The notes under the pieces: model-generated
The model's input: only the letters and a program-made list of their open reading frames with translations
The model's database searches: none
What the model was told of the DNA's origin: nothing
In this document: in pieces, positions 1,449 to 4,015 of the stretch
How the letters are laid out: each line of letters begins with the position of its first letter
How positions within the stretch are numbered: position 1 is the first letter of the stretch
Program-made: the position numbers and the translations under genes
Assembly: GCF_000297775.1 (NCBI RefSeq)
Contig: NZ_JH815513.1
Span: 421,286-455,034 of the forward strand
Direction of reading: 5' to 3'
Source of the DNA: Sutterella wadsworthensis 2_1_59BFAA
GTDB taxonomy: Bacteria; Pseudomonadota; Gammaproteobacteria; Burkholderiales; Burkholderiaceae_F
Length of the DNA: 33,749 nt

Positions 1449-1477
1449 GACAATCTCCTAAATCGTTAGTTTTGCGG

Positions 1478-3397
1478 TTAGTGCGCAAAGGGCGAGCGGG
1501 CTTCGTCCTCCTGCTTGATCATCGCGATGAAGTCATCGAGCTTGATCGAGCCGAGGTCCTTGCCACCGCGGGCGCGAACCGCCACGCAACCGGCCTGCTT
1601 TTCCTTCTCGCCCACGACGAGAATGTACGGAATCTTCTGCAGGCTCAATTCGCGGATTTTATAGTTAATCTTTTCGCTGCGCAAATCAGACTGCACGCGG
1701 ATGCGGGCAGCGTGAAGCTTGGCGGCGACTTCGTCGGCGTAGTCCTTCTGGGCGTCCGTGATGCAGGCGACCGCGCACTGGACCGGGGCGAGCCAGGTCG
1801 GGAAGGCGCCGGCGTATTCTTCGATCAGCATGCCGATCCAGCGTTCGAGAGAACCGAGGATGGCGCGGTGAAGCATGACGGGAACCTTGCGCGAGTTGTC
1901 TTCGGCGACGTACTCGGCGCCGAGGCGGCCCGGCATCTGGAAGTCCACCTGGATGGTGCCGCACTGCCAAGAGCGACCGAGGCAGTCCTTAAGATGATAT
2001 TCGATCTTGGGACCGTAGAAGGCGCCTTCACCCTCAAGAACTTCATACTTGATGCCGAGAGCGTCAAGACTCTGCATCAGGGCATGCTCGGCCTTGTCCC
2101 AGACGGCGTCCTCACCGATGCGCATTTCGGGGCGTGTGGCGACCTTGTAGGCGATCTCGGTGAAGCCGAAGTCCTGGTAGACGTCCTTGACGAGCTTCGT
2201 GAAGGCTTCGCATTCGGCGAGAATCTGGTCTTCCGTGCAGAAGATGTGGCCGTCGTCCTGGGTGAAGCCGCGAACACGCATCATGCCATGGAGCGAGCCG
2301 GAGGGTTCGTTGCGGTGGCACTGGCCGAATTCGCCGAGGCGGAACGGCAGATCACGGTAGCTGCGCAGCGCGCAGTTGAAGATCTGGATGTGGCCCGGGC
2401 AGTTCATCGGCTTGAGGGCGTAGTAGCGGTTCTCGGACTCGGTCGTGAACATGTTGTCACGATACTTGGCCCAGTGACCGGAACGTTCCCAGAGCGAGCG
2501 GTCGAGAAGCTGCGGAGCCTTGACTTCGCCGTAGCCGTTGTCCTGGTAGATGCGGCGCATGTACTGCTCGATCACCTGCCAGAGGGCCCATCCCTTCGGA
2601 TGCCAGAAGATCATGCCCGGGGCCTCGTCCTGGAGGTGGAAGAGGTCGAGCTCGCGGCCGAGGCGACGGTGGTCGCGCTTTTCGGCTTCCTCAAGCATCG
2701 TCAGATAGGCCTTGAGGTCGTCCTTCGTGGCCCAGGCGGTGCCGTAAATGCGCTGGAGCATCTCGTTCTTGGAGTCGCCGCGCCAGTAGGCGCCGGCAAC
2801 CTTCATCAGACGGTGCACCTTGAGGGCGCCCGTGGACGGCACATGGGGGCCGCGGCAGAGGTCGGTGAAGTCGCCCTGACGGTAGAGCGAGATCGTTTCA
2901 CCCTGCGGGATGGCTTCAATGAGTTCGGCCTTGTACTTTTCGCCGAGATCCGTGAAGAACTTCACGGCTTCGTCGCGGGACATCTCGATGCGTTCGATCT
3001 TGATGTTGCGCTTGACGATCTCGTCCATGCGCTCCTCGATGGCCTTGAGGTCCTCGGGGGTGAACGGACGGCTGTAGGAGAAGTCGTAGTAGAAGCCGTT
3101 TTCAATGGCCGGCCCGATCGTGACCTGGGCTTCCGGGTAAAGCTCCTTCACGGCCTGCGCCATCAGATGGGCGGTCGAGTGACGGATGATTTCAACACCT
3201 TCGGCGTCGCGGCCCGTGATGATGGCGACCTGAGCGTCCTTGTCGATCACATGGGAGAGGTCGACGAGCTTGCCGTCGACGCGGCCGGCGAGAGCGGCCT
3301 TGGCCAGACCGGCACCGATGTCGGCGGCGACATCGGCAACGGTGACGGCGGCGGCGAATTCGCGCTTGGAGCCGTCCGGAAGGGTAATTGCAACCAT
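1478..3397 (-). CDS. thrS: Threonyl-tRNA synthetase
   Basis: This class II synthetase charges tRNA-Thr. Its 639 residues match the usual length. In order: an N-terminal TGS domain (about 1-62); the editing domain with the HSTAH motif (His73, His77) and Cys181 in DLCRGPH, which removes mischarged serine; the catalytic core with a zinc Cys333 in MNCPGH, motif 2 around RNEPSG and His384; motif 3 ([11 protein letters not shown]); and the C-terminal anticodon-binding domain. The ATG has a GAGG Shine-Dalgarno. It heads the infC-rpmI-rplT operon. Upstream lie a terminator hairpin only 24 nt away and a Thr-codon leader frame, so it is probably controlled by attenuation, unlike the translational autoregulation of E. 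coli thrS or the T-box of Firmicutes. Confidence 0.98.
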
Positions 3398-3421
3398 TTT
3401 TAACCTCGTTTTCTACAGGCG

Positions 3422-3450
3422 AAAAAAAAGTGCGGACATGAGCCGCACTT
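3422..3450 (-). terminator. Terminator hairpin of the thrS leader
   Basis: The minus strand reads AAGTGCGG, loop CTCATGT, CCGCACTT, then a run of eight T in all. The 8-bp stem is perfect. It ends 24 nt before the thrS start codon, too close for a separate promoter downstream, so thrS transcription must pass through it. It also serves as terminator for the tRNA-Val genes upstream. An alternative 10-bp pairing with 3484-3493 would open the top of the stem. Confidence 0.85.
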
Positions 3451-3483
3451 CTTTGCCTTGGACATTTTGTTGGACAACGTTTC

Positions 3484-3516
3484 GCTCACGCCCTCAATTT
3501 TTCAAAGAGAGGGTGT
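3484..3516 (-). promoter_or_regulatory. Alternative pairing segments of the thrS attenuator
   Basis: Read as minus-strand RNA, segment 1 (ACACCCUC, 3509-3516) overlaps the third ACA codon of the leader frame. It pairs with GAGGGCGU (3488-3495) at 7 of 8 positions. The overlapping stretch GGGCGUGAGC (3484-3493) can instead pair with GCUCAUGUCC (3434-3443) over 10 contiguous positions, including two G-U pairs. That second partner is the loop and top of the terminator stem. The two helices cannot coexist, as expected for an attenuator. Pairings were found by eye. Confidence 0.6.
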
Positions 3517-3546
3517 TGTTGTGCGAAAAGTCTGCGAAGAACACAT
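3502..3546 (-). CDS. Putative threonine-rich leader peptide of thrS
   Basis: A 14-codon open frame reads MCSSQTFRTTTPSL and stops with TGA. Four of fourteen residues are Thr, and codons 9-11 are consecutive ACA (3514-3522), a codon that looks rare in these GC-rich genes, where ACG and ACC dominate. It lies between the tRNA-Val gene and the thrS terminator hairpin. A ribosome stalled on the ACA codons would cover segment 1 of the alternative structures and favour the antiterminated form. This matches the logic of the thr, ilv and pheST leaders of enterobacteria. Weak point: the only Shine-Dalgarno-like sequence (GGGA) is about 12 nt from the ATG. Confidence 0.62.
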   Translation of the reverse strand: MCSSQTFRTTTPSL

Positions 3547-3573
3547 CGTTCAACAAAATCCCAAATAAAATTC

Positions 3574-3650
3574 TGGTAGGCACGATTGGATTCGAACCAA
3601 CGACCCCCACCATGTCAAGGTGATGCTCTAACCAACTGAGCTACGTGCCT
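3574..3650 (-). tRNA. tRNA-Val (anticodon GAC), downstream copy
   Basis: The 77-nt gene folds as a complete cloverleaf: acceptor AGGCACG/CGTGCCT, D-arm GCTC/GAGC, anticodon loop TTGACAT giving GAC (valine, GTC codons), T-arm GTTGG-TTCGAAT-CCAAT, encoded CCA. It is identical to the copy at 3749-3825. Its 3' end lies 27 nt before the leader-peptide ATG, so transcripts continuing past it enter the thrS leader. Confidence 0.97.
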
Positions 3651-3662
3651 GTCAAGGTTTTT

Positions 3663-3691
3663 ATTATGCCTGAGATTTTGCGCATTTGCAA
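3663..3691 (-). promoter_or_regulatory. Promoter of the downstream tRNA-Val copy
   Basis: On the minus strand TTGCAA (3686-3691), a 17-bp spacer and CATAAT (3663-3668) lie 12 bp before the tRNA. The stretch AAAATCTCAGGCATAAT also precedes the other tRNA-Val gene, so the duplication carried the -10 region along. Confidence 0.65.
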
Positions 3692-3748
3692 ACTCTTGCA
3701 TTCGCGGTCCTTGAACCGCTTCACACGGACGTCGCAGGAAGAAGTTCC

Positions 3749-3825
3749 TGGTAGGCACGATTGGATTCGAACCAACGACCCCCACCATGTCAAGGTGATG
3801 CTCTAACCAACTGAGCTACGTGCCT
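3749..3825 (-). tRNA. tRNA-Val (anticodon GAC), upstream copy
   Basis: This 77-nt gene is identical in sequence to the copy at 3574-3650, including the GAC anticodon and encoded CCA. The two genes are separated by a 98-nt spacer with its own promoter-like sequence. It is the first gene of what may be a tRNA-Val-thrS transcription unit. Confidence 0.97.
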
Positions 3826-3841
3826 GCCGTGTGAGAACGAA

Positions 3842-3869
3842 ATTATGCCTGAGATTTTTGAAAAAGCAA
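3842..3869 (-). promoter_or_regulatory. Promoter of the upstream tRNA-Val copy
   Basis: On the minus strand TTGCTT (3864-3869), a 16-bp spacer and CATAAT (3842-3847) end 16 bp before the tRNA. The -10 and the bases before it (AAAATCTCAGGCATAAT) are shared with the second tRNA-Val promoter. Confidence 0.65.
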
Positions 3870-3933
3870 GACCATCGAAAAATAATTTTTCGACGCTCCG
3901 CACCTAAAAACTCGAAAGACCCTGTCGCACAAC

Positions 3934-3964
3934 AAAAAAGGCGAGAAGCCGAAATTTCTCGCCT
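3934..3964 (-). terminator. Intrinsic terminator after relA
   Basis: The 9-bp perfect stem AGGCGAGAA/TTCTCGCCT is followed on the minus strand by six T. It lies about 50 nt after the relA stop and insulates relA from the tRNA-Val promoters. Confidence 0.85.
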
Positions 3965-4015
3965 ACCGTTTTTACGGTATTTTATTTGTAACCCAGCCTC
4001 AGGAGGCCTGCAAAA

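Follow-up and report, generated by a model that had tools for sequence, protein, structure and literature searches.

Attenuators that respond to the codons of an amino acid are known from the thrABC, his, trp and pheST leaders of E. coli. For thrS, the gene encoding threonyl-tRNA synthetase, other forms of control are known. In E. coli the ThrS protein binds its own mRNA near the start, at a tRNA-like site which mimics the anticodon arm of tRNA-Thr, and in the Firmicutes thrS is under T-box control, which senses Thr-tRNA and acts on a terminator. Attenuation of aminoacyl-tRNA synthetase operons was reportedly surveyed by Lopatovskaya in 2010, and that survey may already name thrS. In Streptomyces lividans a Thr-containing leader peptide, thrL, precedes thrS and has been proposed as an attenuator, according to an excerpt of PMC8079986; it was the single precedent for thrS among the open-access literature searched. 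The original prediction for the locus described here knew of no ribosome-mediated attenuation of thrS, a statement that has to be narrowed, since thrL is listed in that excerpt. The main text of a terminator survey, as excerpted, names threonyl-tRNA synthetase once, for E. coli (PMC2965389), and the excerpted part of PMC10219788 holds nothing on thrS. The kind of device is known and, one survey and one supplement aside, is apparently undescribed for thrS in this group.

The window analysed in this study, a stretch of 33,749 nucleotides from Sutterella wadsworthensis 2_1_59BFAA (contig NZ_JH815513.1), carries between a tRNA-Val gene and thrS a short open reading frame (ORF), a leader hairpin (P1), an alternative pairing and a terminator, all on the minus strand (Table 1). 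Ribosome-mediated transcription attenuation of thrS by Thr-tRNA charging is very probably the best reading of this arrangement, as judged from its sequence and from modelled folds. Under this reading the leader would be translated, the tRNA promoter would drive thrS and Thr-tRNA charging would be the signal, three points which we infer. The downstream ORF, which we take to be thrS, encodes a protein 77% identical to that of Mesosutterella porci, the closest named record among the best 80 of at least 581 matches.

Table 1. Positions in the window of the leader elements and of the neighbouring genes.
Feature	Coordinates	Strand	Basis or detail
Leader ORF MCSSQTFRTTTPSL with stop, 14 codons	3502..3546	-	ATG at 3546, TGA 3504-3502
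Three consecutive ACA (Thr) codons, proposed stall site	3514..3522	-	read from sequence
Segment 1, the 5' arm of P1, ACACCCTC	3509..3516	-	pairing check; swap test
3' arm of P1, GAGGGCGT, part of segment 2	3488..3495	-	pairing check
Segment 2 of the antiterminator, GGGCGTGAGC	3484..3493	-	pairing check; genus alignment
Segment 3, GCTCATGTCC	3434..3443	-	pairing check; genus alignment
Intrinsic terminator hairpin, AAGTGCGG-CTCATGT-CCGCACTT	3428..3450	-	stem 8/8 paired
Run of eight T, the first two also closing the terminator hairpin	3422..3429	-	read from sequence
Outer helix P0, 5' strand	3544..3565	-	best fold; swap test
Outer helix P0, 3' strand, between segment 2 and terminator	3456..3479	-	best fold; swap test
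thrS, threonyl-tRNA synthetase, 639 aa	1478..3397	-	full-length matches in relatives
Proximal tRNA-Val (GAC), just upstream of leader	3574..3650	-	tRNA detection
Distal tRNA-Val (GAC)	3749..3825	-	tRNA detection
Sigma-70-like promoter of proximal tRNA-Val, TTGCAA-17-CATAAT	3663..3691	-	consensus match only

The elements of the original prediction were all located where it had placed them: the 14-codon frame with three consecutive ACA codons, P1 with 7 of 8 positions paired (ACACCCTC with GAGGGCGT), the perfect 8-bp terminator stem, and the alternative pairing, or antiterminator, of GGGCGTGAGC with GCTCATGTCC, in which all 10 positions pair, two of them as G-U. Segment 3 of this pairing is made up of the last base of the terminator 5' arm, the loop and the top of the 3' arm. 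The intrinsic terminator lies between the leader ORF and thrS, and the distance from the T run to the thrS ATG (3397) was measured as the expected 24 nt. The search pattern for this terminator has a single match in the whole 2.72 Mb genome (11 contigs). A consensus terminator scan listed the hairpin at 3428-3450 on the plus strand only, and its absence from the minus strand is probably explained by the extension of the stem into the T run, which leaves a tail too short for the rule of the scan. Folding of the leader region, which had been put forward as a check, gave -49.7 kcal/mol compared with -34.6 (sd 3.9) in shuffles (z -3.86), and none of the 200 shuffles was as stable. The best fold combines P1 and the terminator with a long outer helix, P0 (3565-3544 with 3479-3456), an element absent from the earlier account. 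Two features of the region count against attenuation, namely a weak Shine-Dalgarno sequence for the leader, which consists of GGGA only, 12 nt before the ATG, and the fact that this GGGA and the leader start codon are both covered by P0.

Known RNA families do not explain the leader. No match to the T-box, nor to the threonine operon leader, a family which we take to exist in Rfam, was found in the window at the gathering threshold or in 18 relatives at E values up to 1. Rfam returned only tRNA, HPnc0260 antisense matches and one sub-threshold match to DUF805b, in L026. The HPnc0260 matches overlap tRNA-Val, and two of them are just above the gathering score (L005, 1293-1432; L031, 3593-3734); these two lie opposite tRNA-Val and the leader and seem to be carried by the tRNA part.

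Comparison with relatives proved informative. In all, 243 thrS upstream regions were assembled: 62 of the 63 matches in the family (G037, a match without the N-terminus, was left out), 80 of at least 277 non-family matches from other members of the order, 80 named records (the best 80 of at least 581 matches, a set which partly overlaps the order set and includes records from outside the order), and 21 of 131 from other orders of the class. Using as a test an ORF of 6 to 30 codons with three or more Thr within five codons, and dinucleotide shuffles as the control, Thr-rich short ORFs were found in 39 of 62 family regions (1.9 in shuffles), in 26 of 80 from other members of the order (1.6) and in 29 of 80 named records (2.1). 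Outside the order, within the same class, only 1 of 21 regions had such an ORF (0.6 in shuffles), and an extension of the element beyond the order is unsupported. By the same test no other amino acid was as enriched as Thr, the rest lying far nearer the shuffled counts. Their larger departures, with shuffles in brackets, were as follows: family, Leu 12 (8.0), Ala 7 (2.9) and Glu 3 (0.6); order set, Phe 8 (3.7); named set, Ser 14 (8.2), Phe 8 (3.9) and Cys 3 (0.8); class set, Ile 3 (0.6) and Val 3 (0.9). The short ORFs before thrS are in this way enriched in the codons of the cognate amino acid. In two regions of the Lysobacterales, L163 and L178, thrS is preceded by short ORFs, MSTTSSQR and MSTRTAVNN, and by terminator-like hairpins; these are possibly independent Thr leaders outside the order.

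A leader accompanied by a terminator is present in 50 of the 62 family regions, and in each of these the best-scoring leader has at least two Thr; the ORF in this count was chosen for Thr, the controlled count being the shuffle-based 39 of 62. The element is absent from the remaining 12 regions, which belong to genera g5, g8, g9, g16, g17 and g18. By the rules used to pick the non-family leaders described below, a leader with terminator was found in 38 of 80 order loci, representing 16 of 33 sampled families with none in the other 17, and in 32 of the 80 records with names. The 12 family regions and the 17 families that have no such element weigh against attenuation, as do the 13 of 67 non-family leaders that contain only one or two Thr. 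Conservation of the Thr run and of the helices in relatives had been set as a test of the original prediction, and all of them recur, both in the 50 family regions and in some other members of the order. Seventy non-family leaders were taken for further comparison from 160 regions by selection rules that favour RT-type peptides, so that 70/160 is not an unbiased frequency; the look-alikes L099, L106 and L233 were passed over by these rules. Under a loose rule, a Shine-Dalgarno-like word accompanies 33 of 50 family leaders and 59 of 67 others.

The leader peptides of the family have a common Arg-Thr core, as in MCFILNFRTTTPSL, MCNGLSFRTTTTRER, MLPRFTTRTTTTR, MTFRTTTTGS and MASFRTTFTGS, and leaders were also read from Massilia (MTPRTTTLEGFKRR), Cupriavidus (MTPRTTTAEQRQ), Ralstonia (MIQAPRTTTASERQ), Comamonas (MTPRTTTTQSAGR), Vogesella (MFKRTTTTRISR) and Azoarcus (MIFRTTTEAGN). 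The first core Thr of the 45 distinct leaders in the family is encoded by ACT in 27, ACA in nine and ACG in seven, and is not Thr in two; the second is encoded by ACA in 25, ACG in 15 and ACC in two, and is not Thr in three. Five near-duplicate family leaders were left out of this codon count, as well as of the swap test, the shuffle comparison and the stall-position scan described below. That Thr is kept while its codons vary is the mark of a translated frame, here a putative one, though outside the family the CGA-ACT codon pair itself hardly varies.

It is conceivable, if rather improbable, that the sensor is not the run of Thr codons but a fixed CGA-ACU pair encoding Arg-Thr, or a hexamer that doubles as codons and as an arm of P1. 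Non-family leaders show almost no variation in the hexamer CGAACU (CGA in 61 of 63, ACU in 59 of 63), and 13 of 67 non-family leaders have only one or two Thr; MFRTCSLALYC, MGFRTCMPDSMHRF and MTPRTFLLKR are examples of such leaders in which the pair is kept. A slowly read CGA would in this case occupy the P site, with the Thr codon in the A site. If true, the leader would be a one-codon sensor of Thr-tRNA which doubles as the terminator of a tRNA operon.

The use of ACA codons in the leader also deserves comment. ACA was predicted to be rare in this DNA and it is, accounting for 13 of 386 Thr codons (ACT for 15) in 17 window frames judged to be genes by inspection and not with a gene finder. 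Each of the four Thr codons in the window leader is either ACA or ACT, and among the 10 distinct leaders of the genus ACA accounts for 26 of 32 Thr codons. The sharpened response that was expected from this rarity need not follow, as the rare-codon account is called an oversimplification in the excerpted text of PMC1183508, which notes that the leader of the thr operon has eight ACC codons. How a rare ACA affects the response is a matter of the balance between the supply of the tRNA that reads it and its use.

If ribosome-mediated attenuation by Thr-tRNA is the correct reading, the origin of the transcript has to be considered. A consensus promoter scan of 3380-4010 gave two minus-strand hits, both of which are one site before the proximal tRNA-Val, and no promoter was found inside the leader on the minus strand between tRNA-Val and thrS. 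The promoter-like site ends 12 bases upstream of the tRNA. The proximal tRNA-Val promoter is the likely source of thrS transcripts, and the terminator would then both end the tRNA transcript and gate thrS. It may be argued that the hairpin is the terminator of the tRNA-Val transcript and nothing else, with thrS expressed by constitutive leak-through and the Thr codons incidental. A tRNA end does lie within 420 nt upstream in 40 of the 50 family loci with the element, and in some relatives thrS is preceded by tRNA-Val and a plain terminator, with no Thr leader. However, no tRNA was detected within that distance in the other 10 family loci (nine of genus g2 and one cut by a contig end), nor in up to 34 of 70 non-family loci, a figure inflated by tRNAs which the pattern misses, such as that in L076. 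Since the same leader is kept where no tRNA is detected, and since a plain terminator requires neither a Thr ORF nor a competing segment 2, this explanation appears very improbable.

Other observations concern the surroundings of thrS. The ORFs beyond it on the minus strand are presumably infC and rplT. In the infC-like ORF (1458-1446, minus strand) GGAG is followed by six bases and then ATA, with an in-frame ATT right after the GGAG, and the next in-frame ATG, at which the program-made list starts this ORF, is 38 codons further in; the CATAGC context of this start is also present in L006, L011 and L013. The ORF seems, on its sequence, to start at a non-standard codon. infC is known for its poor start codon, and the start in the window fits. 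A 643-aa open frame on the plus strand (1472-3403) lies opposite the whole of thrS, and probably just mirrors a G+C-rich gene, without being a gene itself.

Besides the terminator, the pairings that recur in relatives are P1, which joins the Thr codons with segment 2, the antiterminator and P0. They were compared in a swap test, in which native pairings are set against between-species pairings within groups, for the 45 distinct family leaders with 5000 permutations. The native mean was -18.2 versus -16.4 for P0 (reached by 0 of 5000 permutations), -16.5 versus -15.6 for P1 (28 of 5000) and -16.3 versus -15.9 for the antiterminator (70 of 5000), numbers which serve as guides because related species are not independent. 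The signal is uneven between groups, and this counts against attenuation. The largest, group X with 15 leaders, has no P1 signal (-16.6 versus -16.6) and a native antiterminator that is slightly worse than the swapped one (-15.9 versus -16.2); the P0 signal comes from g1, g4 and g15, and in the P0 test the best duplex is sometimes not P0 itself, as in L018 and L047. MAFFT left P0 unaligned between species and placed L015 off by two columns in alignment A1, so that per-pair counts are given for the antiterminator only and the swap test was used instead. In the genus alignment 92.8% of antiterminator cells are paired, compared with at most 57.7% when the alignment is slid, and the pairing is nearly invariant within the genus, with one pair changed on both sides (41 of 500 shuffles), which is a further point against attenuation. 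The antiterminator partners of segment 2 are the terminator 5' arm and loop, and in the window's genus the loop and 3' arm.

The strength of the P0 and P1 structure, together with the near fixation of CGAACU outside the family, might suggest that the leader RNA is bound by the ThrS protein, which would thereby control termination or translation, the peptide not being the sensor, and E. coli ThrS does regulate its own expression according to the excerpted PMC2965389. We give this explanation little credence, as the P1 loops and P0 sequences differ between genera and, in the family, Thr is kept through synonymous changes.

The preferred reading, in which a ribosome stalled for want of Thr-tRNA sets the fold, was examined with a masking model fixed at the moment when the terminator 5' arm and loop have been made. 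In the family the expected number of pairs between segments 2 and 3 was 2.2 with no ribosome, 11.0 for a stall at the core and 8.4 when the ribosome is placed at the stop codon, and the stalled value exceeded that without a ribosome in 49 of 50 leaders and that at the stop codon in 39 of 50. Masking brings no gain in L051, and in L012, where the chosen ORF enters segment 2, the masked pairing is low (2.7). A gain of at least five pairs was seen in 37 of 45 family leaders, compared with 35% for one kind of shuffle and 33% for another. Masking also adds pairs in shuffled leaders, from 3.6 to 7.2, which counts against attenuation. Outside the family, with three duplicates of the 70 leaders left out, the corresponding values for 67 distinct leaders were 2.3, 10.8 and 6.2, and 55 of 67 gained at least five pairs compared with 42% of shuffles. 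In this computation a stalled ribosome favours a mutually exclusive alternative pairing, for which the swap signal is uneven.

Pairing peaks at 10.5 to 11.0 when the ribosome sits at the first core Thr codon or immediately beyond it, and falls gradually upstream to an average of 6.3 pairs for stalls nine codons before the core; in the window leader a stall anywhere from Arg8 to Leu14 switches the modelled fold, so that the fold alone does not single out Thr. That the frame senses a general slowing of translation, caused by antibiotics or a low ribosome supply, more than Thr-tRNA is nonetheless scarcely credible, for while any of these modelled stalls would free segment 2, it is Thr codons that are specifically enriched before the cognate gene. 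For the window leader the model gives 2.6 pairs without a ribosome, 10.8 with a stall and 9.9 with a ribosome at the stop codon (footprint 13 nt), the last falling to 6.7 with a 16-nt footprint. A ribosome at the stop codon therefore hardly blocks the window antiterminator, and termination in replete cells would need its release followed by the closing of P0 and P1.

Attenuation by Thr-tRNA charging might thus operate as follows. RNA polymerase coming from the tRNA-Val promoter would enter the leader, with a ribosome trailing on the Thr-rich frame. When Thr-tRNA is ample, the ribosome would pass the Thr codons, get to the stop codon and depart, after which P1 and P0 would close, segment 2 would be locked, the terminator would form and thrS expression would be low. 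When Thr-tRNA is scarce, the ribosome would wait on the Thr codons and mask segment 1, segments 2 and 3 would pair and the polymerase would continue into thrS. If no ribosome is loaded, P0 and P1 would close and transcription would stop as well. The central claim of the original prediction, that stalling on ACA would free segment 2 and prevent termination, is supported by the recurrence of the element in relatives and by the masking model.

If this is true, codon-based attenuation would represent a third solution to the control of thrS, used in about half of the sampled families (16 of 33) of one order, and the sensing system of one housekeeping gene would have been exchanged more than once. 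In a group that includes Cupriavidus, Massilia, Comamonas and gut Sutterellaceae-like bacteria, it would predict how ThrS behaves when Thr is limiting or a ThrS inhibitor is present. The leaders also make up a collection of short genes whose function can be tested.

The thrABC, his, trp and pheST leaders have in common with the present one a short ORF of cognate codons, an exclusive antiterminator and terminator, and a T run before the gene. They differ in that here thrS is the gene controlled, often on a transcript with tRNA-Val, and in that the peptides are short, with an Arg-Thr core, and P0 covers the leader start. The resemblance to the E. coli thrS operator is autoregulation of the same gene, but that operator is a site on the mRNA bound by the protein, whereas the present leader is proposed to be codon-based. 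T-box leaders of Firmicutes thrS likewise sense Thr-tRNA and act on a terminator; the present leader, which has no T-box match in Rfam, would act through a translated ORF. As described in the excerpt of PMC8079986, S. lividans thrL is similar in being a short Thr-containing ORF preceding thrS, but it is an actinobacterial and leaderless ORF with two Thr codons and one hairpin, for which that excerpt reports no U-rich sequence and no clear terminator, and its peptide, MKRVRPFLETTPGFVPAR, is unlike the present leaders except for TT.
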